From Clostridia bacterium (GTDB lineage: Bacteria > Bacillota_A > Clostridia > Oscillospirales > CAG-272), in assembly GCA_017632155.1 (NCBI GenBank), contig JAGBRZ010000193.1:1-35007 (forward strand): DNA of 35,007 nucleotides, given 5' to 3'. Numbering within the stretch: the first letter of the stretch is position 1; each line of letters opens with the position of its first letter. A program made the translations under genes and the position numbers. Below the pieces are notes generated by a model. The model saw nothing but the letters and a program-made list of their open reading frames with translations, was not told where the DNA came from and ran no database searches. Shown piece after piece: positions 23,130 to 33,335 of the stretch.

Positions 23130-24038
23130 ATGAGTTTCAGTTTAGCTTCACTTATGAGCTATCCGATATGGACGCTCGTTTTCGCCATTTTCTTTCCCGC
23201 GCTCGCAGCAATAGCAACTTTTGTCTGCTTGCGACGTGCAAATTCCGCTCGAAGGCTTATAGGATTTTTTGTTATCGTACCGATATACGTTGCGCTTGCA
23301 GTCGTCGTATGCGGTGATACGGGAGGGCTTGTGTCCACGCTACTCCCCTGCCTTCGTACATATCCGGGAATCGGCACCCTTGCGGCAATATGCTTTGGAA
23401 TCATCTGCCTCAATTTCATCGGTTTGATATGCGGCGCAGGTATTCTTAAAAGACGCGGTGCCATCGTCAATACGGTTGCTTCCATAATTGCTTTCTTCCT
23501 TAACGCTTTCATCACTTACAGCGCGTGGGCATTTGGTGACTATATTCATTCAAACGGTCTTTTCCGCAATGATATGCACGTAATTTCCGTAAAGGATGCT
23601 TTTCCTTACCTCGAAGAGCTTGGCTTCATCCCTTCCGTGATAATTGATTCGGGTGTTGAAATTCTTGCTCTTGCTGTCCTTGCACTTTTCATTATCGTTT
23701 ATTTTCTCTCTTTCATTCCGCAGAAAAGCGCAGAGGAGATCCTTAAAGAGGATCTTGAACGCAAGCGCCGCGCTGCCCTTGCAGCATCGGTTGAAAAACG
23801 CGACAGCATTGATAAGATCGCGCACACCTGTGCAGATGAAGACGAATGCACGCAATGCTGTGAATTCTGCGAGCACGCCACAACCCTCAAGAGCGACCGT
23901 ACCAAGATGGTCTGCGACAGATTCGGCGTTGTTAGCGCAACTCACAAATGCCGCAAATTCCTTTACGATCCCCTCAAGCGCAAGGCGTTCCGCCCGAAGA
24001 TCGACACGGAAGATCAGCTTGAGCACATAGACATTTAA
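23130..24038 (+). CDS. Membrane protein with C-terminal cysteine-cluster domain, unknown function
   Basis: Not a named family. The 302 residues show four or five hydrophobic segments (about 10-33, 43-61, 80-105, 111-133 and 172-195), then a charged linker (200-230, EEILKEDLERKRRAALAA). A compact cysteine-rich tail has C234, C240, C243, C244, C247, C262 and C274, ordered as CTQCCEFCEHA, MVCDRFGVVSATHKCRKF, then YDPLKRKAF. This tail resembles a short domain that recurs in clostridial proteins and could bind zinc or an iron-sulfur cluster on the cytoplasmic side. CGGAG precedes the ATG. A strong constitutive-type promoter and a terminator make it monocistronic. Confidence 0.85.
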   Translation: MSFSLASLMSYPIWTLVFAIFFPALAAIATFVCLRRANSARRLIGFFVIVPIYVALAVVVCGDTGGLVSTLLPCLRTYPGIGTLAAICFGIICLNFIGLICGAGILKRRGAIVNTVASIIAFFLNAFITYSAWAFGDYIHSNGLFRNDMHVISVKDAFPYLEELGFIPSVIIDSGVEILALAVLALFIIVYFLSFIPQKSAEEILKEDLERKRRAALAASVEKRDSIDKIAHTCADEDECTQCCEFCEHATTLKSDRTKMVCDRFGVVSATHKCRKFLYDPLKRKAFRPKIDTEDQLEHIDI

Positions 24039-24043
24039 GCCAC

Positions 24044-24080
24044 AATAACTCCCGTTTTTTTCGAACGGGAGTTATTTTTT
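24044..24080 (+). terminator. Intrinsic terminator after the cysteine-cluster gene
   Basis: A perfect 13-bp stem (24044-24056 with 24064-24076), 7-nt loop and a run of T to 24080, starting 5 bp after the stop codon. It isolates the six-gene operon downstream. Confidence 0.92.
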
Positions 24081-24092
24081 ATCTGTTTTTTC

Positions 24093-24121
24093 TTGACTTT
24101 TTGCTCCAAATATGATATTAT
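24093..24121 (+). promoter_or_regulatory. Promoter of the LRR-SPFH-ATPase operon
   Basis: TTGACT (24093-24098), a 17-bp spacer and TATTAT (24116-24121), 41 bp before the first ATG. It is the only good promoter seen for the six genes up to 31838. Confidence 0.85.
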
Positions 24122-24162
24122 AAATTGAATAATTATATATTCCTTTGCGAAAGGACTCAACA

Positions 24163-25077
24163 ATGAAACAAAAAAAGCTATTTTGCTTGGCACTTGTCTG
24201 TCTTGTGCCGATCATTCTGACCTTCATTTTAGCCTCGTGCAACGGTTTTTCAGAGACCGAATATGCGATCGTCGAGGAAGGTTTGATATTTGATATCTAC
24301 GTTTACGACAAATATGAAAATTCAACCGTCAGGATCACCGGGATCGACAAGATGCCAAGGCATCTGATAATTCCCGAAAAGATAAACGGTATGACCGTGG
24401 TTGAAATTGCCGAGGGCGCATGTGCAAACAACGATACTCTTCTCTACCTTGAGCTTCCAAAGGGGAACATCAAGCTTGGAAAAGAATTCTGCTGCGGAAG
24501 CCTTGCTCTCACGGGAATCAATCTTTCGGGCTCTGTAAGCGTTATCCCCGAAAATGCATTTGAGGGTTGCTTAAATCTTGCGCGCATCGACGGCACGGAG
24601 GGGCTCACCGCTATCGAATCACAGGCATTCGCGGGCTGCTCATCACTCCCCTCTCTTGCAATACCCGAAACGCTCACCTCTGTCGGAGCCGAGGCTTTTC
24701 GCGGATGCACCGCCCTCTCGCGCATAAGAATTCCGAGTGCCGTAACCTTCATCGGCGAATCGGCTTTCTGGGGGTGCGACGGCCTTGCAGTTGCGGAAAT
24801 GCTCTGCACCGCTGAAATCCCCGAATATTGCTTCCTCGGTTGCGCTTCGCTGACTTCCGTCAAGATCGGCGACAACGTGACTGCGATAAATGCCGAAGCT
24901 TTCAGAAACTGCCGCGCGCTTTACAGCGTTGAGATCGGCAAAAATTGCAAAACGATTGGTGACTATGCATTCCACGCCTGCGATCAGCTCACCGATATCG
25001 TATTTGCCGACAAAGCAAGCGTTTCTATCAGCGAAGGCAATGAAGTGCTGATCGGACAAAGCAAGGAGGCAGAATGA
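24163..25077 (+). CDS. BspA-type leucine-rich-repeat lipoprotein (operon gene 1)
   Basis: A 304-residue predicted surface lipoprotein. The signal peptide MKQKKLFCLALVCLVPI ends in a lipobox LASC with the modified cysteine at 26. After a ~50-residue spacer come seven or eight BspA/LRR_5-type repeats of about 23 residues, with the recurring pattern IGxxAFxGCxxLxxIxIPxxVTxI, for example AFRGCTALSRIRIPSAVTFIG. Such repeats form curved binding surfaces. AAGGAC precedes ATG 24163; an in-frame start six codons earlier has no ribosome binding site. It shares its stop (TGATG) with the next LRR gene. Role within the operon is unknown; it may be an extracytoplasmic sensor or ligand-binding partner. Confidence 0.88.
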   Translation: MKQKKLFCLALVCLVPIILTFILASCNGFSETEYAIVEEGLIFDIYVYDKYENSTVRITGIDKMPRHLIIPEKINGMTVVEIAEGACANNDTLLYLELPKGNIKLGKEFCCGSLALTGINLSGSVSVIPENAFEGCLNLARIDGTEGLTAIESQAFAGCSSLPSLAIPETLTSVGAEAFRGCTALSRIRIPSAVTFIGESAFWGCDGLAVAEMLCTAEIPEYCFLGCASLTSVKIGDNVTAINAEAFRNCRALYSVEIGKNCKTIGDYAFHACDQLTDIVFADKASVSISEGNEVLIGQSKEAE

Positions 25078-26105
25078 TGAAAATTAAAGCTACCGCATAT
25101 ATCCTTATCCTCTTTATGCTTCTGCCGTTGCTTTTCTCCTGCAAAGGAACCGAAGCCGCGTTTACACCCGAAGCATTTGATTTTACTCTCCGCACTCACA
25201 CCGAAGAAATGGGATTTGAAAGCGGATATTCCTTCACAGTTCTTGATGACGGAAGCGTTGTTATCAACGAAGCCGACGTCACGGGCGACGTAAAGATCCC
25301 CGCCGAGCTTGCGGGCAAAAAGGTCACCGCCATCGGCGAAGGTGCATTCTTCAAAAACACTTCGATCACATCCGTAAGCATACCAAACGGAGTCGAATCG
25401 ATCGGAATATATGCCTTTTCCGATTGCACCGCGCTTACCTCGGTCGAGATTTCTGAAAGCGTATGGCGCATCGCTCCGTTTGCGTTCGAGAACACGCCGT
25501 GGCTTTCCGCACAGACCGATGAGTTTGTGACCGTCGGCGGCGGAGTTCTCATTGCCTACAACGGAACGTCCCGCACTCCCGCACTTCCCGAAAAGGTCCG
25601 TCACCTTGGCGGAGCGTTTGCGGGCTCCGAAACCGTCTACACGATCACGGCAAATAAGGAACTGCTCAGCATTTCGGATATGGCGCTTTCATTCTGTATG
25701 AATCTTACCGATATCGACCCGGGACTTTCGCTTGTTTATATCGGAGATCAAGCATTTTCGGGATGTGAAAAGCTCCGTTCGCTGAATCTGCCCGACACGG
25801 CAAGATACATTGGAAGTCAGGCGTTCCTTAACTGCTATGAGCTCAAATCGGTTGACCTCGGCGAGAGTATGACTCTACTTGGCTCCAACACCTTTGAATA
25901 CTGCCAGAGTATGAGAATCATTTACGTCCCCAAAACTCTGACATCTCTCAAAACCTCGCACTTTACCGACTGTATGTCGCTCACACTTCTGCTTTACGAA
26001 GGAAGCGAAGCGGAGTTTGACGCAATATCCACCAATGACAACGCATTCAACTTCAGAGATCTGAACAAGGTCTTCAATTATACCGGAGGCACCAATGAAA
26101 AATAA
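25077..26105 (+). CDS. BspA-type leucine-rich-repeat lipoprotein (operon gene 2)
   Basis: A 342-residue predicted lipoprotein with signal MKIKATAYILILFMLLPL and lipobox LFSC (cysteine 22). A ~45-residue linker leads to LRR_5 repeats in two groups (about 75-125 and 190-300), divided by a repeat-free piece with FVTVGGGVLIAYNGT. It is related to the gene before it, probably by old duplication, but the repeats differ. Two ATGs (25074, 25077) are possible; AAGGAGG spacing favours the second, which shares the A of the upstream TGA. Its 3' end overlaps the first SPFH gene by 11 bp and carries that gene's GGAGG. Confidence 0.87.
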   Translation: MKIKATAYILILFMLLPLLFSCKGTEAAFTPEAFDFTLRTHTEEMGFESGYSFTVLDDGSVVINEADVTGDVKIPAELAGKKVTAIGEGAFFKNTSITSVSIPNGVESIGIYAFSDCTALTSVEISESVWRIAPFAFENTPWLSAQTDEFVTVGGGVLIAYNGTSRTPALPEKVRHLGGAFAGSETVYTITANKELLSISDMALSFCMNLTDIDPGLSLVYIGDQAFSGCEKLRSLNLPDTARYIGSQAFLNCYELKSVDLGESMTLLGSNTFEYCQSMRIIYVPKTLTSLKTSHFTDCMSLTLLLYEGSEAEFDAISTNDNAFNFRDLNKVFNYTGGTNEK

Positions 26106-27876
26106 CAAATTGCGAAAGCTTCTCCCGCCGCTGATATCGCTTATTGTTGCGATAGCTTGCGGCATCGGAATGATTTACTTATACAGGCTGACAAAGTACC
26201 TGCCCATTTATCTTCTCGGCCTCACTCTTCTTCTCCCCTCGGCGGTAAACTTCTCACTCTTCATTTTAAAGATACCGACTAAAAAGAAGGAAAAGAATAT
26301 CGAACTTACAAAAGAGGAACCCGCGCCAGACGCAGAGGAAAAGAAATTCAAAAAGATCCTCCGAGCTGTCGGCAAGGCGATCAAGAGTTTCTTCTGCAAA
26401 ATATGCGGCAAGATCGACGGAGAAAAACTTATTCGCTATCTTTCCATCATCATCGCCGCAGCGGCATTCGTCGCAATTCAGTATTTCTTTGCTATTTCGC
26501 TGAAAGCGGCAACCTCGCTTTACACGATCAATTATGCCTACGCCGTTCTTCTGATCGCGCTCTTCCTTGTATTCATAGTCCTTGACAAGTGGATGCTTCA
26601 CAACGAGGATGCGGGCGAATATGCCTCTGCTCTTGGCGGCAACGTGCGCTCGATCCTGGCACTTGCCAGACTTGCGCTGATACTTATGATCCCCGCGATG
26701 TTCATCAAGCTCCTCGGATTTTACGAGCTTCAGAAGTACGTGGTCATTGCAGTTGCGATCATATTCTACTGGTCATCGCTTTTCACTCTTCTTTCATATC
26801 TGGCAAGGGGCGTTCGCCACGAGCTTGCAAGTGCGCCCGACATCCGCATTCCCACACCCTTCTCGGGCGGAAGCGGAAGGGATATGGGAATCCTCTCCTA
26901 CCTTGAGGAAAACACGGGAATCACAATGCGCGGCCTTTGGAGCGTCAAGCTCATGGGCAAGCTCATCATCCCCTCTCTTGTCTTTGCATTTCTCCTTTTC
27001 TGGATCTCAACAGGATTTGTTGAGATCGGCGCGGGACAGCAGGCTGCACTTTACAACTTCGGAAGGCTTCAAAGCGAACCTCTCGATCCGGGTCTGCACC
27101 TGACTCTGCCTTGGCCGTTTGGAAAAACAGTAATATATAACACAGACGCAGTATCCACCATCACCATCGGCTACCGCTCCGATACCTCGGGCGACAACGT
27201 CTGGACTCAGACGCACGGAAGCGAGGAATACGAGCTTCTGCTTGGCGGAGGTGAGGAGCTTGTTTCGATCAACCTTTGCATCGAATACAAGATCGGCAAC
27301 CTTAATGACTATCTCGTCAACTGCGCACGTCCCGAATCGGTGCTCGAGGCAAGCGCATATGAGCTTGTCGCTGACAAGACCATTGTGACTGACCTCAACA
27401 CGCTTCTTTCAACCGACCGCGATGAATTCGCATCGGCATTTATGGTTGATCTGAAGGAAAAGATTAAGGAACGAAACACGGGACTTGAAATCGTCAGCGT
27501 TGTCCTTGAAAGCATTCATCCCCCTCTCGGCATTGCCGATATTTATCAGCGCCTTGTAAGCGCGGAGATCGAAGCGCAAACACGAATTATGTACGCCGAG
27601 GCATTTGCCGCTGTACGCGTGCTTGAAGCAGAAACCAATTACAGCCAAACCGTTTCTGTAGCAACCGCCGAAAGACTTAACAAGATCGCTGCGGCACAGG
27701 CGGAGGTTTCCGAGTTTATGGCAAGCGTTGCCGCAGACTCATCCTATTCAGACGCTTACAGATATTATAAGTACCTTAACGCCGTTAAAAATGCATACGG
27801 CAACGGAAATATCGTTATAGTCAGCTCGGACATTGATGATTCCCGAATCATCTGGCTCGGCTCTATCAAAAACTAA
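26095..27876 (+). CDS. SPFH/band-7 protein with polytopic N-terminus (HflK-like, operon gene 3)
   Basis: A 593-residue membrane protein. About seven hydrophobic segments come first (11-31, 36-59, 113-134, 144-164, 186-208, 214-235, 289-307), with a lysine-rich loop at 61-100. An SPFH domain follows from about 308: GAGQQAALYNFGRLQSEPLDPGLHLTLPWPF, then VSINLCIEYKIGNLNDYL and VVLESIHPPLGIADIYQRLVSAEIEAQTR. A helical C-terminus (490-565) follows. Classical HflK has one membrane segment, so the polytopic front end is unusual. SPFH proteins form ring-shaped membrane microdomains that shelter or regulate partners such as FtsH. Start ATG 26095 has GGAGG 5 bp upstream. Confidence 0.88.
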   Translation: MKNNKLRKLLPPLISLIVAIACGIGMIYLYRLTKYLPIYLLGLTLLLPSAVNFSLFILKIPTKKKEKNIELTKEEPAPDAEEKKFKKILRAVGKAIKSFFCKICGKIDGEKLIRYLSIIIAAAAFVAIQYFFAISLKAATSLYTINYAYAVLLIALFLVFIVLDKWMLHNEDAGEYASALGGNVRSILALARLALILMIPAMFIKLLGFYELQKYVVIAVAIIFYWSSLFTLLSYLARGVRHELASAPDIRIPTPFSGGSGRDMGILSYLEENTGITMRGLWSVKLMGKLIIPSLVFAFLLFWISTGFVEIGAGQQAALYNFGRLQSEPLDPGLHLTLPWPFGKTVIYNTDAVSTITIGYRSDTSGDNVWTQTHGSEEYELLLGGGEELVSINLCIEYKIGNLNDYLVNCARPESVLEASAYELVADKTIVTDLNTLLSTDRDEFASAFMVDLKEKIKERNTGLEIVSVVLESIHPPLGIADIYQRLVSAEIEAQTRIMYAEAFAAVRVLEAETNYSQTVSVATAERLNKIAAAQAEVSEFMASVAADSSYSDAYRYYKYLNAVKNAYGNGNIVIVSSDIDDSRIIWLGSIKN

Positions 27877-27891
27877 TTTTAGGTGATCAAT

Positions 27892-28986
27892 ATGAAAAAG
27901 AATAAAGTAACAGAAAATAACGAAAAAATGGCGATCTCGCACGAGCCTCGTGAAAAATCAAGCTTTGGCATGCGTTTTCTCAAGGTATTTGTTGCGCTCA
28001 TTCTCGTCACCGCAATTGCATATTTCGGCTTCACCTTTGAAGTCCGCGAGGGCAACTGTGCAGTAGTACTTCGCTTTGGTGCTCCCCGCGCAGAGATCAC
28101 CGAATCGGGACTTTACTTCCGTCTGCCCTGGCCCTTTGAGAACGTTGTTCAGTATGAAAACAGAATGCAGTATCTTGAATCCAACGCGCAGGAAACCGTA
28201 ACAAAGGACAAGAGAAACATAATCCTCTCCTCTTACGTTATCTGGCAGGTTGAAGATCCCCTGCTCTTCCACAACAGCGTCGGTGCTTACGGAAGCACTG
28301 AGGTTTACATCGATCAGCAGATCAGAAGTGCGACACAGAGCACAATGGGTGCTTACGAGCTTACCGAGCTTGTATCCCTCGACACGGAAAAGATCAAAAC
28401 CGAAGAAATTCAGCAGAAAATCTTTGAAAAGGTCAAGGAAAACTGCGAAAAGAACTATGGCATTTCTATCATCGATGTCAGCATCCTTCGTCTGAGTCTG
28501 CCCGATATCAACCTTCAGAGCGTATTCGATCAGATGCGCCAGGACAGACAAACAGACATTGATACCATTCTTGCAAAAGCTGAAAAGGAAGCAAGCCGCA
28601 TTACAAACGAAGCTGAAGTCAAAGCTGAGGAAATAATTGCCAAGGGCACAAACGAAGCTGCGCAGATCAAGGCTGATACAGAAAAAGCAGTTGCGCAGAT
28701 CTATGCAGATGCACAGGCAGCAAATCTTGATCTCTTCACCTTCCTCAAGACCCTTGATACACTTGCTGTTTCCGTAAACTCGAACACCTATGCTATTCTC
28801 AGCACAGATGACTATCCCTTCACCGCTCTCAAAGACTATTCTGATTTGCTTGAAGACGAAGGCGATACCACAATAATCAAAGATCTTTCATACCTCCTTG
28901 AACAGCTGAACGAAACCGACAGACAGGCGCTCATTGACGCCATCGGCAAGCTTCTCGAAGAAGCCGCAAAGGGTAACGCACAATGA
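27892..28986 (+). CDS. SPFH/band-7 protein, HflC-like (operon gene 4)
   Basis: A 364-residue protein with a short charged cytoplasmic N-terminus and one membrane segment (29-48). An SPFH domain runs from about 49 (FEVREGNCAVVLRFGAP, GLYFRLPWPFENVVQYENRMQ). The HflC-like pattern is DKRNIILSSYVIWQVEDP, IRSATQSTMGAYELTELVS and MRQDRQTDIDTILAKAEKEASRI, leading into a long alanine/glutamate coiled coil (220-280). The acidic tail to 364 is extended compared with HflC. ATG 27892 follows AGGTGATC; a GTG three codons earlier is part of that site. The stop overlaps the next start (ATGA). It would pair with an HflK-type partner, probably the next gene. Confidence 0.88.
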   Translation: MKKNKVTENNEKMAISHEPREKSSFGMRFLKVFVALILVTAIAYFGFTFEVREGNCAVVLRFGAPRAEITESGLYFRLPWPFENVVQYENRMQYLESNAQETVTKDKRNIILSSYVIWQVEDPLLFHNSVGAYGSTEVYIDQQIRSATQSTMGAYELTELVSLDTEKIKTEEIQQKIFEKVKENCEKNYGISIIDVSILRLSLPDINLQSVFDQMRQDRQTDIDTILAKAEKEASRITNEAEVKAEEIIAKGTNEAAQIKADTEKAVAQIYADAQAANLDLFTFLKTLDTLAVSVNSNTYAILSTDDYPFTALKDYSDLLEDEGDTTIIKDLSYLLEQLNETDRQALIDAIGKLLEEAAKGNAQ

Positions 28987-29921
28987 AAAAGAACCTTTTA
29001 TTTGAAGACATCCTGAAAACGGTGTCGCGATACTTTGTCGTGATAATCATCGCGGTGGTCATCATAATCGCCTGCTCGGGAATCAGATTCATCAAGAGCG
29101 GCGAATCTGCGATCATACTGCGATTCGGCAAGATAGTTGGCGATACTCCGGAAGAACAGGTCCACGATGCGGGCGTACTCTTCGCCTTCCCCTACATTAT
29201 CGACGAGGTCATCACCATCCCCACAGGAAGCGTGCACGAACTGACGATCAACACTCACTACACGGACGGTGAAATGACCACATATGACAGAAACGGCTAC
29301 GTCATCACGGGTGACAATAACATTGCAATTCTCTCTGCCTCCATCAAATACACGATCATCGATCCCGTTGCTTTCGCACTTGCGGTAAAGGATCCCGGAT
29401 ACATCATTAACGCCGCGATCAGCAACGCAATGATCAACGTTGCGGCAAATTATGCGGTTGACGATATTCTTACCACGGGCAAGGATGCCTACACCAAGGC
29501 TGTCCGCGAAATGTCGCAAAAAAAGCTTGACGAATGCGGAATTGGGATCGCTCTCAGCCACTTGGAGCTTACCCGCGTCGGTATGCCCGAGGAGGTCCGC
29601 GATATTTACGAGCTTGTAAACTCGACCAACATTCAGGCAAGCACACGAATTGAACAGGCTCGTCAGTATTACGAAACAAGGATCCCAGGCGCAGAGGCGG
29701 AGGCAAACTCGCTGATCGCCGAGGCTCGCGCAAACTACTCGAACTACACAGCTGCCGCAAATTCCGATCTTTACGAATTTTACGGCGTACTTGAGGAATA
29801 CAACGCAAACCCCGAGGTTGTAAGGGTAAGACTTTACAACACCGCAATCACCAACATCATCCGCAAGATCGGCACAATCAAGATCGTTGACGATTCGGAT
29901 TCGAAGATAATCATCAACTGA
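28983..29921 (+). CDS. SPFH/band-7 protein, HflK-like (operon gene 5)
   Basis: A 312-residue protein with one membrane segment at 16-34 (FVVIIIAVVIIIACSG). An SPFH domain follows (FIKSGESAIILRFGKIVG, GVLFAFPYIIDEVITIP). The signature GYVITGDNNIAILSASIKYTI at 105-125 matches the (M/L)TGDxNI motif of HflK. ISNAMINVAANYAVDDILTTGKDAYT, then HLELTRVGMPEEVRDIYE and a helix (218-265) complete the family pattern. No HflK-type Gly/Gln-rich N-terminal tail is present. It overlaps the preceding gene by 4 bp and lies 15 bp before the ATPase, arguing for stoichiometric expression. Confidence 0.88.
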   Translation: MKKNLLFEDILKTVSRYFVVIIIAVVIIIACSGIRFIKSGESAIILRFGKIVGDTPEEQVHDAGVLFAFPYIIDEVITIPTGSVHELTINTHYTDGEMTTYDRNGYVITGDNNIAILSASIKYTIIDPVAFALAVKDPGYIINAAISNAMINVAANYAVDDILTTGKDAYTKAVREMSQKKLDECGIGIALSHLELTRVGMPEEVRDIYELVNSTNIQASTRIEQARQYYETRIPGAEAEANSLIAEARANYSNYTAAANSDLYEFYGVLEEYNANPEVVRVRLYNTAITNIIRKIGTIKIVDDSDSKIIIN

Positions 29922-29936
29922 CGGGAGGTTACATAG

Positions 29937-31838
29937 GTGGAAAACTTAGATAACATAGCAAAAAACAGCCTCGAAGCTCTCGCCAAGGATAATCTTAACG
30001 ACAAAAACCGACGCGCACTGACAGCAAATCTCGTCAGCGCCGCCGCTGCACTCGTTTGCATTGCCGTTGGAATCATCTATTCCTGGGTGTTCCCCGACAA
30101 GGCCACCCTGCCCGCACTTCTCTACACCGTTGGATTCCTGATTGAAGGAATTCCCGTCTTCGTCGCGGCGCTCAAAGGCATATTCTCGCGCAATTTCACC
30201 AACGCAATGGAGATCCTCGTTGCCATTGCTATCCTCGCCTGCTACCTTTCGGGCGACCTGATACTTTCGGTTCTCATTCCGCTGATACTCAACATCGCAC
30301 ATCTTCTTGAAGAGCGAAGCATTATGGGCGGGCGCGAGGCTATCGACGGGCTCAAGAGAATGCGTCAGGACAGCGCAGTTCTTCTTGACGGAGACGTTGA
30401 AAGAACCGTCGAAGCATCCTCTCTCGAGGTTGGTCAGACAATCGTCATCCGCCCCGGTTCGGGCATTCCGATCGACGGAAAAGTCATTTCGGGTGAAACC
30501 AACGTCGACCAAAAATCGCTGACCGGTGAACCTCTCCCCGCGCACATTAAGGTTGGTGACAGCGTATACGCGGGCACAGTCAACATCGACGGACGAATTC
30601 TCGTCAAGGTAGAAAAGGCTTACGTCGACACGTCTTTCTCGAATATTCTTACAATGCTTGAGGAAGCGGAAAACATCTCGATTCCCGAATCAAGACTTAT
30701 CGACCGCTTTATGCGCTATTACATTCCCTTCGTTCTCGCGCTTGCGGCGGGAGTTGCGCTGATAACCTCCGATCTTTCAAAGGCTATCGCAATACTCGTC
30801 GTGTCCTGCCCCTGCGGTCAGATGCTCGTCAGCTCCGCGCCGATGATAGCATCTCTCTCGACAGCAACCAAGCGCGGAATACTTATCAAGAACTCAAAAT
30901 TCATCGAGGAAATGACAGAGGTCGAAACCGTTGTGTTTGACAAAACGGGAACTCTTACCGTTGGTGAGCTTTCGCTGACCGATATCATTCCCGCAGACGG
31001 CTATGATAAAGACGATCTCCTCTCTCTTGCCGCATCCCTCGCTTGCGGCTCGAACCACCCCGTATCGCGGGCGGTAACCGATGCCATTGAGGGCAAGGAA
31101 TACGAGGTGCTTGATGATGTCAAGGAGATCCCCGGCAAGGGTATGCAGGGCAAGGACTCCGAAGACCGCGAGCTTCTCCTCGGCAACAAGTACTGGTTCG
31201 ATTCACTCGGCATTGCCATTCCCGAGGGCTTCGGTGAGGCTCTTCTCGGCTCTGTGAGCTTCGTTTCGCGCGGTGGCATACTTATCGGTTGCCTCGGTTT
31301 CAACGACACAGCGCGTGCTGAGGCGGCTCAAAGCATCACTACGCTCAAAGAGATGGGCATCAAAAACACCGTTATCCTCACGGGTGACCGTGAAGCGGCG
31401 GCTCGCAAGATTGCAAGCGAGGTTGGCGCCGATGACGTAAAGTATCAGCTCCTTCCCCAGGATAAACTTGAAGCGATCAACTCCTTGCGCGAGGGCAGCT
31501 GTGTTCTCGCAGTCGGCGACGGCATCAACGATGCTCCCGCACTCCGTCAGGCAGACGTTGGTATCTCGATGGGTGCAATGGGCTCCGACCTTGCAATTCA
31601 ATCTTCGGACATTGCCCTGATGAACAACAATCTCGAAAACATTCCCTTCATCATCAAGCTCTCCAAGCAGACGAGAAAGATCATTTATCAGAACCTCATT
31701 CTCTCTGTTCTCATCAGCCTTACGATGATCGGACTTTCGCTCTTCGGAGTGATCTCCGCCCTCTTCGGTGCGGTCTTCCACAATGTCGGCGCATTCGTCG
31801 TGCTTATCAACAGTTCGAGAATACTGAAGATAAAATAA
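29937..31838 (+). CDS. P1B-like P-type cation ATPase with atypical transmembrane motif (operon gene 6)
   Basis: A 633-residue ATP-driven cation pump of the heavy-metal (P1B) type. Seen: TGEP (196-199) in the actuator domain, the intramembrane motif SCPCGQML at 290-297, phosphorylation site DKTGT with D335, the HP locus SNHPVSRAV (372-380) and TGDGIND-type VGDGINDAPAL (526-536). There is no N-terminal HMA metal-binding domain. The last segments read QNLILSVLIS and AVFHNVGAF. Aligned by eye with E. coli ZntA, the zinc-ligand lysine 693 and aspartate 714 are replaced by S594 and N616, so zinc specificity is doubtful. The start is GTG 29937 with GGGAGG 8 bp upstream. A terminator follows directly. 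Metal and direction of function cannot be given. Confidence 0.9.
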   Translation: MENLDNIAKNSLEALAKDNLNDKNRRALTANLVSAAAALVCIAVGIIYSWVFPDKATLPALLYTVGFLIEGIPVFVAALKGIFSRNFTNAMEILVAIAILACYLSGDLILSVLIPLILNIAHLLEERSIMGGREAIDGLKRMRQDSAVLLDGDVERTVEASSLEVGQTIVIRPGSGIPIDGKVISGETNVDQKSLTGEPLPAHIKVGDSVYAGTVNIDGRILVKVEKAYVDTSFSNILTMLEEAENISIPESRLIDRFMRYYIPFVLALAAGVALITSDLSKAIAILVVSCPCGQMLVSSAPMIASLSTATKRGILIKNSKFIEEMTEVETVVFDKTGTLTVGELSLTDIIPADGYDKDDLLSLAASLACGSNHPVSRAVTDAIEGKEYEVLDDVKEIPGKGMQGKDSEDRELLLGNKYWFDSLGIAIPEGFGEALLGSVSFVSRGGILIGCLGFNDTARAEAAQSITTLKEMGIKNTVILTGDREAAARKIASEVGADDVKYQLLPQDKLEAINSLREGSCVLAVGDGINDAPALRQADVGISMGAMGSDLAIQSSDIALMNNNLENIPFIIKLSKQTRKIIYQNLILSVLISLTMIGLSLFGVISALFGAVFHNVGAFVVLINSSRILKIK

Positions 31839-31843
31839 TGAAG

Positions 31844-31880
31844 AACTCCAACAGATTTTTAAGTCTGTTGGAGTTTTTTT
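31844..31880 (+). terminator. Terminator of the LRR-SPFH-ATPase operon
   Basis: A perfect 12-bp stem (31844-31855 with 31864-31875), 8-nt loop and seven T residues, starting 5 bp after the ATPase stop codon. Confidence 0.93.
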
Positions 31881-31958: not shown

Positions 31959-32177
31959 ATGAGATATATTGCAGTTTTTCCGACACTCACGCTGGCGCAG
32001 AAGGCGGCGAGGGTGCTAAAAAACGAAAAGATCGCGGCGGATGTCATCAAGGTCGATTCAACGCGCACGCGGCGCGGGTGCTCCTGGGGCGTTGCTTTTG
32101 ACGAGAGCAAGCTTTTATCCGTGCGGATGGCGTTTTCAAATAACTCCGTCGCCGAGCGCGAGATCATCAAGGAGTAA
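31959..32177 (+). CDS. DUF3343 protein (putative Se/S carrier-like)
   Basis: A 72-residue cytosolic protein with the DUF3343 layout: a N-terminal strand (MRYIAVFPTLTLAQKAARVLKNEKI), a middle strand and the conserved cysteine in STRTRRGCSWGVAF. The family is annotated as putative selenium/sulfur carrier-like and is often found next to class V aminotransferase-type desulfurases. That is exactly the case here, where the desulfurase starts 3 bp downstream. GAGG lies upstream of ATG 31959. The 78 bp between it and the upstream terminator hold no convincing promoter; a TATACT box at 31905-31910 lacks a good -35. Confidence 0.85.
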   Translation: MRYIAVFPTLTLAQKAARVLKNEKIAADVIKVDSTRTRRGCSWGVAFDESKLLSVRMAFSNNSVAEREIIKE

Positions 32178-32180
32178 ATG

Positions 32181-33335
32181 ATGACATATCTTGACAACGC
32201 CGCCACATCCTTCCCCAAGCCACCCGAGGTTATCGATGAAATGGCGCGCTGTATGAGAGAATACTGCGGCAATCCCGGGCGGGGTTCGCACAAGCTTGCC
32301 TTGGCGGCGGCGGAAAAGATCTATGATTGCCGGGCAAGTCTGTGCGATCTCTTTTCGGCAGAGTCGCCTGAAAACGTGATCTTCTGCCAGAATGCCACCC
32401 ACGCGCTGAATATCGCGATCCTCTCGCTTGCACGTGACGGCGCACATTTCATCTGCTCGGATATGGAGCATAACTCCGTCCGTCGTCCGCTTGAATACCT
32501 TGCCCGCGAGCGCGGATGCTCATACTCGGTTTTCGATTCCCACACTCTCGATCCAAATCGGAATGCTCAAAAGATCTGCCGCTCGATCTCTTCACTTGTG
32601 AAGCCGCAAACGGTTGCGGTGATCTCGACTGCCTGCCCGAATATCTGCTCGGCAAGGATGCCTCTTGACGAAATAGGCGAGCTATGCCGGCGTGCGGGAT
32701 TGCATTTTATCGTTGACGGTGCTCAAGGAGCGGGACACTTCCCGATAGATATGAAACGCTCAGGCATCTCGGCACTTGCCCTTCCGGGTCACAAGGGTCT
32801 TCTCGGACCGCAAGGAAGTGGAGCTTTGATAGTATCAAACAGCTTCCCCGCCCGACCGTTGACCTTTGGCGGCTCGGGAAGCGCCTCTCTCGACGCCGAA
32901 ATGCCCCGAGAATTACCCGAAAGGCTCGAGGCGGGCACTCTTTCAACTCCCGCGATCGTGGGCTTGGAGGCGGGAATTCGGGCTCTGCAAGGTATCGGAC
33001 TTCAGAACATTTCATCACACGAAGAGATACTCTTTAAGAAAGCTCTGCGATTGCTATCCGAAATTCGCGGGGTAACAATTTACGCTCCTCGACATATCGG
33101 ATCGGTGATATCGTTTAACATTGATGGCATTCCCTCTGACCGAGTGGCAAATATGCTTTCCGAGCGCGACATTTGCGTGCGCGGCGGATTTCATTGCAAT
33201 CCTATGGCACACGCCACACTCGGAAACGATCACGGCGGCAGCGTCCGCGCTTCCTTCTCCCCTTTCAACACCGCGGATGACGTGCTCGCTCTTGCTGACG
33301 CAGTGCGCGACATCTCGCGGGGAAAATATAGATAA
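32181..33335 (+). CDS. Class V aminotransferase, cysteine desulfurase-like
   Basis: A PLP enzyme of the NifS/SufS-related cysteine desulfurase family found beside DUF3343. The 384 residues start TYLDNAATSFPKPPEV. They show NPGRGSHKLALAAAE, the PLP-binding aspartate in FIVDGAQGAGHF (D179), the Schiff-base lysine in LPGHKGLLGPQGSG (K205) and a candidate catalytic cysteine in CVRGGFHCNPMAH (C339). It would release sulfur (or selenium) from cysteine (or selenocysteine) and pass it to a carrier. Two ATGs (32178, 32181) follow AAGGAG; spacing favours the second. No selD or Fe-S assembly genes are visible in the window. Confidence 0.87.
   Translation: MTYLDNAATSFPKPPEVIDEMARCMREYCGNPGRGSHKLALAAAEKIYDCRASLCDLFSAESPENVIFCQNATHALNIAILSLARDGAHFICSDMEHNSVRRPLEYLARERGCSYSVFDSHTLDPNRNAQKICRSISSLVKPQTVAVISTACPNICSARMPLDEIGELCRRAGLHFIVDGAQGAGHFPIDMKRSGISALALPGHKGLLGPQGSGALIVSNSFPARPLTFGGSGSASLDAEMPRELPERLEAGTLSTPAIVGLEAGIRALQGIGLQNISSHEEILFKKALRLLSEIRGVTIYAPRHIGSVISFNIDGIPSDRVANMLSERDICVRGGFHCNPMAHATLGNDHGGSVRASFSPFNTADDVLALADAVRDISRGKYR

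Follow-up and report, generated by a model that had tools for sequence, protein, structure and literature searches.

Gene organization of the operon

The stretch of DNA analyzed here (the window, 35,007 nucleotides) comprises positions 1-35,007 of the forward strand of contig JAGBRZ010000193.1 from a Clostridia bacterium (assembly GCA_017632155.1), and all features described below are on its plus strand. A stem-loop with a T tail at 24044-24076 ends the upstream gene, insulating the operon. Downstream of it lie a sigma-70-type promoter at 24093-24121 (TTGACT-17-TATTAT, 10/12, TG present) and six genes. The first two encode the BspA-type LRR lipoproteins LRR1 (24163-25077; ATG start, with an alternative TTG at 24145) and LRR2 (25074-26105). 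These are followed by the polytopic SPFH protein S1 (26095-27876; Band_7, 8.4e-11), an HflC-like SPFH protein (27883-28986; Band_7, 3e-27) and an HflK-like SPFH protein (28983-29921; Band_7, 8.7e-21), the latter two with one N-terminal TM each, and finally by a P1B ATPase of an SPFH-linked (HmtA-type) clade (29937-31838). A stem-loop followed by a T run closes the operon at 31844-31875; the scan reported it on the minus strand only, and the plus-strand reading also ends in a T run. The successive junctions measure -4, -11, +6 (or +15), -4 and +15 bp, the HflC-like gene starting at either GTG 27883 or ATG 27892. The original prediction of six genes packed so closely that no overlap or gap exceeds 15 bp therefore agrees with the ORF list, and the promoter and terminator (31844-31880) by which it bracketed them are both present. 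The same gene order is repeated in L004-L007 and, overall, in 15 of 39 Clostridial loci. The promoter element upstream of LRR1 is also seen in L004, L006 and L007 in an alignment read by eye, in which L005 is misaligned; promoter-like matches are frequent in the window (26 found by the promoter scan, 11.3 expected).

Both LRR proteins have the characteristics of BspA-type lipoproteins, namely, LRR_5 repeats (5.9e-44 for LRR1 and 1.2e-40 for LRR2), a signal sequence, and a Cys in a lipobox-like context (LASC and LFSC, respectively). Their genes occur in 18 of the 39 Clostridial loci and in none of 44 loci from other organisms. The LRR pair is thus a local, Clostridial addition in this genome to a conserved unit, and the earlier view of these lipoproteins as general parts of the system is not sustained. 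Their absence from most homologous loci had in fact been named beforehand as one half of what would refute that prediction.

A four-gene core conserved across phyla

The conserved unit consists of the last four genes of the operon, encoding S1, the HflC-like protein, the HflK-like protein and the P1B ATPase (26095-31838). Among the 83 loci in which S1 was found (39 Clostridial and 44 others; Clostridia, Planctomycetota and Proteobacteria), this set is complete and in this order in 81, and the two exceptions are a contig end and a gene fusion. Similarly, when the searches started from the cassette-type ATPase, HflK was located upstream of the pump in all 17 loci (three of them search centres), directly adjoining it except in two loci, where about 600 bp separate the genes. 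Among the 96 loci of other P-type ATPases that served as a control, only 4 have an SPFH neighbour, and the pumps of these four loci are sister to the cassette pumps (support 99). The trees, here and below, are quick ones built with no bootstrap. In them, each of the three SPFH positions forms one clade across phyla (support 89, 94 and 94), and these congruent clades support a shared history of the cassette genes. Apart from this, the cassette is also found on plasmids, and its distribution within Pseudomonas is patchy.

Another finding is that a P1B ATPase and an SPFH domain are joined in a single ORF in four genomes (L118/L073, L117/L091, L210 and L211), with HflC and HflK adjoining the fusion gene in L118 and L210. 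The fusion ATPases fall outside the cassette clade in the trees, which makes them evidence for P1B pumps being paired with SPFH proteins, but not for exactly this pump. Six further long ORFs (984-1087 residues) from Paraburkholderia and Burkholderia were rejected as 5' extension artefacts in GC-rich DNA, leaving L073 as the only genuine fusion among the seven long ORFs checked. Taken with the gene order and the ATPase-first loci, the fusions bear out the earlier idea of a unit of pump and SPFH proteins; an ATPase mostly lacking SPFH partners, which would have spoken against that idea, is not what is found in this clade.

Features of the P1B ATPase

The window ATPase scores 513 bits against TIGR01525 (cut-off 346) and 454 bits against TIGR01512 (Cd family), and it contains the motifs CPC, DKTGT and, in TM8, HN; no HMA domain was detected in the Pfam scan. 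CPC is present in 32 of 33 cassette ATPases (CPM in L044) and HN in 31 of 33. In the tree, 32 of the 33 group together (SH-aLRT 100), and the CopA- and ZntA-type pumps from these genomes fall elsewhere; with wider sampling the clade including the window and Pseudomonas rows has a support of 99; the P. aeruginosa pump P0253 is not in the tree. The HN motif was rejected as a hallmark of the cassette, as 5 of 29 further Bacillota pumps and 2 of 27 from Planctomycetota also have it but show no SPFH neighbour in the flank of about 1.5 kb examined. These seven more distant P1B pumps form side branches in the tree. Since the motif extends outside the cassette, only the clade is claimed here.

We take the ZntA-type P1B-2 exporter motif to be a Lys in TM7 and DxG in TM8. 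In the window ATPase, these positions are occupied by S and HNVG, and the protein thus departs from the ZntA type. Its first 40 residues contain no His, and there is no His-rich N-terminus; such an N-terminus is found in part of the Proteobacteria, being present in P0253 but absent in L046, L048 and L065. The window ATPase and P0253 are 33% identical.

The three SPFH proteins

In S1, a six-TM domain (residues 1-243) is followed by TM7 and by an SPFH domain, in which one loop carries the pattern W-x3-H (W370 and H374). The W is found in 81 of 81 S1 sequences and the H in 80 of 81; the loop also occurs in all four fusions and in none of the 14 other SPFH proteins checked. The six-TM domain is modelled with a CDF/ZnT-like fold, with Foldseek E values above 1; CDF was the only fold to stand out in the structure comparison of residues 1-243, a result that excludes nothing. 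At the sequence level, S1 differs from CDF/ZnT (SLC30) proteins. The hhalign probability of its membrane domain against CDFs was only 1.2%, PF01545 (CDF) had no match at E values up to 10 in six proteins searched, and the membrane domain precedes the SPFH domain. In addition, no D, H or C is conserved in more than 85% of 47 Clostridial sequences in the TM region, nor are acidic, His or Cys ligands conserved there, whereas the CDF metal ligands are presumably Asp/His in TM2 and TM5.

The SPFH folds are likewise predicted, and topology prediction places the SPFH parts outside the cytoplasm. The HflC-like protein scores 138.5 bits against TIGR01932, above the cut-off of 134.4, and the HflK-like protein 136.8 bits against TIGR01933, below the cut-off of 159.4; S1 reaches 73.9 bits with the curated HflK profile (cut-off 159.4). 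The cassette HflC and HflK proteins form clades separate from the presumed canonical ones (support 94 and 94), the canonical sequences being named by pairing and tree position rather than annotation. A further adjacent SPFH pair in the Pseudomonas, Rhizobium and Enterobacter genomes groups with the presumed canonical HflKC, and a second pair in Burkholderia is recognized by position only. Compared with the HflKC-FtsH cage of E. coli, the cassette adds a third, polytopic SPFH member and differs in its order (HflC-HflK), its constant P1B ATPase partner and its separate clades. An NfeD partner, as in flotillin-type SPFH-NfeD pairs, had no Pfam match at E values up to 0.01 in eight window proteins.

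Correspondence to the Pseudomonas hmtA cluster and the zinc link

By synteny and published labels, the core corresponds to PA2439-PA2435 of P. aeruginosa, that is, PaFlo5-7 and HmtA. The published gene numbers and labels give the order HflK family, HflC, HflC family and P-type ATPase, and the cassette ATPase of L045 shares 82-84% identity with P. aeruginosa proteins, P0253 among them. A near relative of the pump also occurs in P. protegens (P0343, 83% identity to that of L045). On the other hand, HflK and the pump are separated by a further small gene in L045, L049 and L067 (PA2436 would do the same, by its number), the Pseudomonas pump has a His-rich N-terminus that the window pump lacks, LRR matches are absent from the 44 non-Clostridial loci, and a Zur link is reported for P. 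aeruginosa with none found in the window operon. The original prediction that no characterised system has this composition is to be corrected: the hmtA cluster is a known zinc-responsive locus, but the papers found do not treat the PaFlo5-7 SPFH proteins as partners of HmtA, nor do they report an interaction or complex of the pump with SPFH proteins.

HmtA, reportedly linked to Zur, is described in reviews as a Zn/Cu importer whose overexpression raised cell Zn and Cu; one review regards the import activity as in need of confirmation and hmtA as an exception to Zur binding. Contrary to this exception, Zur is reported to bind the PA2439 promoter in vitro (EMSA), and in the same study hmtA mRNA was unresponsive to Zn. 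PA2434-PA2439 are reportedly induced in a znuA deletion, and the proteins of the PA2439 cluster increase under Zn depletion, partly significantly. Deletion of PaFlo5-7 is reported to cause no growth defect in LB. A 2026 study notes that a limited number of species from different classes share the PaFlo5-7 operon; it makes no mention of HmtA, and it judges the whole SPFH set to be without conserved operon context.

Zinc genes flank L114, the source of the queries, and a ZnuA-ABC-ABC3 set adjoins L043. Besides L114, strong zinc-gene neighbours (at least 100 bits) occur at L043, L065 and L070, together with one ABC ATPase at L116; most cassette loci have none within the available flank, and the control loci (2.5-4.8 kb) are too short for a fair comparison. 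Before the Clostridial operons, Zur boxes (1/40, 0.95 expected from shuffles) and Fur boxes (8/40, 7.1 expected) were no more frequent than chance. A PerR-like box (25/40, 12.45 expected) and the Pseudomonas-type palindrome (5/40, 1.0 expected) were in excess, for which our guess is the AT-rich sequence. No tie of B. cenocepacia BCAM0727 to the cassette was found, and L048 had no match among the E. coli genomes of the collection.

Proposed mechanism and alternatives

SPFH proteins are widespread, yet few of them have a known client. The shared gene order and the fusions of pump and cage suggest that in some bacteria a metal pump works under a protein dome. Our leading explanation, to which we give a little less than an even chance, is that the pump takes up Zn, perhaps Cu, under an extracytoplasmic dome built by the SPFH proteins; what we infer here is the dome, the ATPase as its client, the metal, the direction of transport and the part played by the LRR proteins. 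S1 and the HflC-like and HflK-like proteins would form a dome like those of HflKC and stomatin, standing on the outer side of the cytoplasmic membrane. The P1B ATPase would occupy the membrane patch beneath it, anchored by the CDF-like domain of S1. Between the dome and the outer mouth of the pump there would be a small space, in which scarce Zn2+ (perhaps Cu) could be collected and passed on for uptake, the activity reported for HmtA, and the nearly invariant W-x3-H loop of S1 may face this space. In Clostridia, the two lipoproteins, on the same outer surface, may dock to the dome or cap it.

Precedents are available in HflKC, reported to enclose FtsH, and in the stomatin domes described around AQP1 and UT-B in erythrocytes. 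The latter resemble the proposed structure in that an SPFH dome encloses a transporter, but they are eukaryotic and their SPFH domains are cytosolic, whereas those of the cassette are predicted to be extracytoplasmic. A bolder reading, which we hold only tentatively, is that of a new machine class, in which a hetero-oligomeric SPFH dome having one subunit with a degenerate CDF-like domain would create an extracytoplasmic nanocompartment enabling import by a P-type ATPase. This machine would be the same from Clostridia to Pseudomonas (HmtA), with the fusions as its one-polypeptide form. The present result places HmtA, a puzzling P-type importer by report, and the uncharacterised PaFlo5-7 in a single unit that recurs in several phyla. 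Their link offers a concrete candidate client, a test condition (limitation of Zn or Cu) and, in the fusions, proteins favourable for structural study.

Export instead of import is unlikely in our judgment, although it is the strongest competitor. The SPFH proteins would then gather a P1B exporter into a microdomain that confers resistance to Zn, Cd or Cu, much as PacL proteins are reported to cluster the P-type pumps CtpC, CtpG and CtpV in effluxosomes. A review describes P-type metal pumps as usually efflux pumps, and the TIGR01512 score of the window ATPase fits such a role; yet the best-studied member reportedly responds to Zn depletion, the reported overexpression effect of HmtA is one of accumulation, and the Lys and Asp positions of ZntA are replaced. 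PacL/CtpC effluxosomes share with the cassette small membrane partners encoded alongside the pump, but PacL is a DUF1490 protein rather than an SPFH protein, the pumps are exporters, and no dome is described in the reports found; none of the six operon proteins has a DUF1490 match in the Pfam scan (E values up to 0.01).

Slightly less probable still is that the SPFH trio are FtsH modulators, HflKC paralogues that under metal stress would govern how fast the pump or other membrane proteins are degraded; the pump would then be a substrate of proteolysis instead of the occupant of a transport dome. The HflC-like protein passes the TIGR01932 cut-off, the cassette HflC and HflK clades adjoin the presumed canonical sequences, and P. 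aeruginosa papers call PaFlo5-7 FtsH modulators. However, Pseudomonas, Rhizobium and Enterobacter already possess a separate canonical-like pair, and the HflC-HflK order, the constant pump partner and the ATPase-SPFH fusions speak against this reading. Mere co-regulation of metal-stress genes travelling together with no physical complex is improbable, because the order unbroken across phyla, the congruent clades, the fusions and the overlapping starts and stops in the window all argue against it, even though mobility, given the plasmid location and patchy occurrence, could maintain the linkage.

Conservation of the four-gene core

Six ORFs lie on one strand of the window, bounded on the 5' side by a terminator (24044-24076) and a promoter (24093-24121) and on the 3' side by a stem-loop followed by a T run (31844-31875). 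The junctions are -4, -11, +6 (GTG start) or +15 (ATG start), -4 and +15 bp, and by Pfam and NCBIfam the products are two BspA-type LRR proteins, both with a signal sequence and a lipobox-like Cys, three SPFH (Band_7) proteins and one P1B ATPase. The six-gene operon of the original prediction is thus borne out by its ORFs, junctions, families and flanking signals.

The core of this operon is four genes, encoding the polytopic SPFH protein S1, an HflC-like protein, an HflK-like protein and the ATPase (the cassette). A tblastn search of plasmids with S1 returned 18 records, and among the five inspected the same gene order was found on plasmids of Rhizobium, Burkholderia, Klebsiella (annotated) and Paraburkholderia, the fifth record being without annotation. 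An S1-alignment scan of genome contigs gave 183 relatives; in the best 80 loci plus three plasmid loci, the cassette is complete and ordered in 81 of 83, the exceptions being L011, cut by a contig end, and L073, which carries a fusion. These loci come from Clostridia (39), Planctomycetota, Sumerlaeota and alpha-, beta- and gamma-Proteobacteria.

Because loci found with S1 are biased towards S1, a second search was started from the ATPase, with the best few candidates scored per genome. Matches of at least 770 bits occurred in 11 of 398 genomes of a Pseudomonadota sample, in 1 of 398 of a phylum sample around the search centre G001 (the centre itself), and, in two one-order searches with four genomes in common, in 5 of 245 each; weaker matches (337-385 bits) were present in 47 further genomes around G001. 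HflK lies upstream of the ATPase in all 17 loci obtained, three of them search centres, and HflC lies beyond HflK in 15, the flank being too short in the other two. In L199 and L200, approximately 600 bp separate HflK from the pump, as in the Pseudomonas locus L045. As a control, 96 loci of other P-type ATPases (21 + 29 + 27 + 19, from four samples) were viewed over approximately 1.5 kb on each side, and an SPFH neighbour was present in four (L127, L130, L138 and L145, all of the Planctomycetota phylum). The expectation that this ATPase travels with SPFH partners therefore held, and the control strengthens the pairing. In the four control loci, a P1B ATPase stands beside an SPFH gene, and the loci are too short for the full gene set.

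The LRR genes had also been expected to co-occur with the cassette, which stood for only part of the Clostridia: two LRR genes lie directly 5' of S1 in 15 of the 39 Clostridial loci and one in three, 18 in all, while none is found in 21 (two with less than 1.2 kb upstream) or in any of the 44 non-Clostridial loci. On the S1 tree, LRR presence requires three changes, or four with the outgroup counted as lacking, and the genes are present in the deepest Clostridial group. They look like an old addition in Clostridia that was lost more than once.

Beyond the operon, a 302-residue membrane protein with no Pfam match is encoded at 23130-24038, and ORFs of similar size occupy the equivalent place in L004-L006. 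On the 3' side (31960-33335), a small ORF and a class-V aminotransferase (cysteine desulfurase-like) are separate from the operon.

Phylogeny and ATPase-SPFH fusions

All trees were built quickly, without bootstrap, and contain some long branches. The first combined 33 of the cassette ATPases with 21 further P-type ATPases encoded in these genomes; 32 of the 33 cassette rows group as a single clade (SH-aLRT 100), separate from the CopA-like and ZntA-like pumps. A second tree of 66 rows unites its 18 cassette pumps (support 99), with the four control pumps that have SPFH neighbours as their sister group (support 99). Of the 33 cassette rows, 32 have the CPC motif and 31 the HN motif of TM8, with other residues at the ZntA Lys and Asp positions; HN-bearing pumps with no SPFH neighbour in view fall outside the cassette clade in the 66-row tree, and this wider spread weakens HN as a cassette motif. 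In the SPFH tree, where refetched cassette copies carry the label 'other', every cassette position resolves as a clade of its own (support S1 89, HflC 94, HflK 94) that includes Clostridia, Planctomycetota and Proteobacteria, and the HflC and HflK clades adjoin presumed canonical HflC and HflK. The quick trees support one shared history for the cassette members.

Single ORFs in which an SPFH domain follows a P1B ATPase were found in L073/L118 (Sumerlaeota, 1038 aa), L091/L117 (a planctomycete, ORF truncated where the contig stops), L210 (993 aa) and L211 (1154 aa). HflC and HflK adjoin the fusion gene on the same strand in L118 and L210, and neither lies beside it in L211 at the threshold used. 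In the Planctomycetota phylum, with few candidates scored, at least 3 of the 246 genomes sampled carry a fusion, including the search centre G007, which also carries the split cassette L044; fusions occur in 1 of 40 genomes from the phylum of L073, the search centre itself. The two fusion ATPases placed in trees group together outside the cassette clade, both on long branches. The fusions argue that a P1B pump and an SPFH domain work side by side, but they belong to a neighbouring branch. In the planctomycete locus L044 (6032-7918), an ArsP_1-family permease gene ends a few bp 5' of S1.

Proposed arrangement of the pump and SPFH proteins

The composition, gene order and fusions are direct observations, and the topology and folds are predictions. 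In the most likely arrangement, which is inferred together with the client, the metal, its direction and the LRR role, the three SPFH proteins would assemble into a dome. There are precedents: HflKC, as told in PMC13086221, forms a cage around four FtsH hexamers, and native stomatin encloses AQP1 and UT-B (PMC12407830, preprint). The ATPase would be the natural client, because it is the constant partner, the last gene and SPFH-fused in relatives. Such a dome would lie over the pump's outer mouth, which makes most sense for uptake of a scarce metal; the LRR lipoproteins would share this outer surface, possibly docked to the dome. An efflux platform of SPFH proteins and pump, like PacL/Ctp (PMC13043812), is doubtful. 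That the trio modulates FtsH, the partner in the HflKC precedent, is unlikely given that the constant partner here is the ATPase. Mere co-regulation of the cassette genes is very improbable beside the fusions.

The Pseudomonas aeruginosa counterpart and zinc

The ATPase of L045 is 82-84% identical to P. aeruginosa proteins that were equated with HmtA from synteny and from labels in publications rather than from accessions. In the P. aeruginosa literature, one cluster comprises PA2439 (HflK family), PA2438 (HflC), PA2437 (HflC family), PA2435 (HmtA) and PA2434; it rises 5.6- to 14.4-fold upon znuA deletion, and a weak Zur site is predicted for it (PMC4542158). In EMSA, the PA2439 promoter is bound by Zur, despite which hmtA mRNA was low and unrepressed (PMC8531726), and a later review treats hmtA as the exception to Zur binding (PMC10393844). 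Cluster proteins increase in Zn depletion, with p <0.05 in the table for PA2438 only, by one of two methods (PMC11761036), and N-acetylcysteine raises three cluster genes (PMC9431628). HmtA is reported as an importer of Zn and Cu, for which confirmation is said to be needed (PMC10393844, PMC8456098). The SPFH trio, named PaFlo5-7, has been deleted, leaving normal growth in LB, reduced biofilm and attenuation in Galleria; a limited number of species from different classes share the trio together with its context, the conclusion for all nine SPFH proteins is that conserved operon organisation is absent, and the main text mentions neither HmtA nor P-type (PMC13086221).

In the open-licence literature, we found no paper that treats this ATPase and SPFH proteins as a single system, which does not prove absence, nor, among the matches listed, one containing both HmtA and SPFH; PMC4542158 and PMC11761036 tabulate the cluster genes together, with no complex proposed in the text seen.

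Around L114 lie ZigA, a zinc ABC transporter and a Fur-family gene, and in a planctomycete (L043:278-2832) genes for ZnuA, an ABC ATPase and an ABC-3 permease adjoin the cassette directly upstream, approximately 25 bp before S1, possibly as a joint zinc-uptake operon. Such neighbours are absent from most loci within the flanks examined. Some Pseudomonas loci (L045:13296-13823, L049:5487-5984, L067:13232-13720) encode, between HflK and the ATPase and at the position of PA2436, a small protein with a signal-like N-terminus, whose L045 copy has no match in Pfam. In the collection protein P0263, a P. aeruginosa-type ATPase is in frame with a downstream PF16304 domain, perhaps through a frameshift into the next gene. 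The stomatin/prohibitin homologue BCAM0727 of B. cenocepacia stands at 68.6 in a micro-oxia expression table (PMC3759415).
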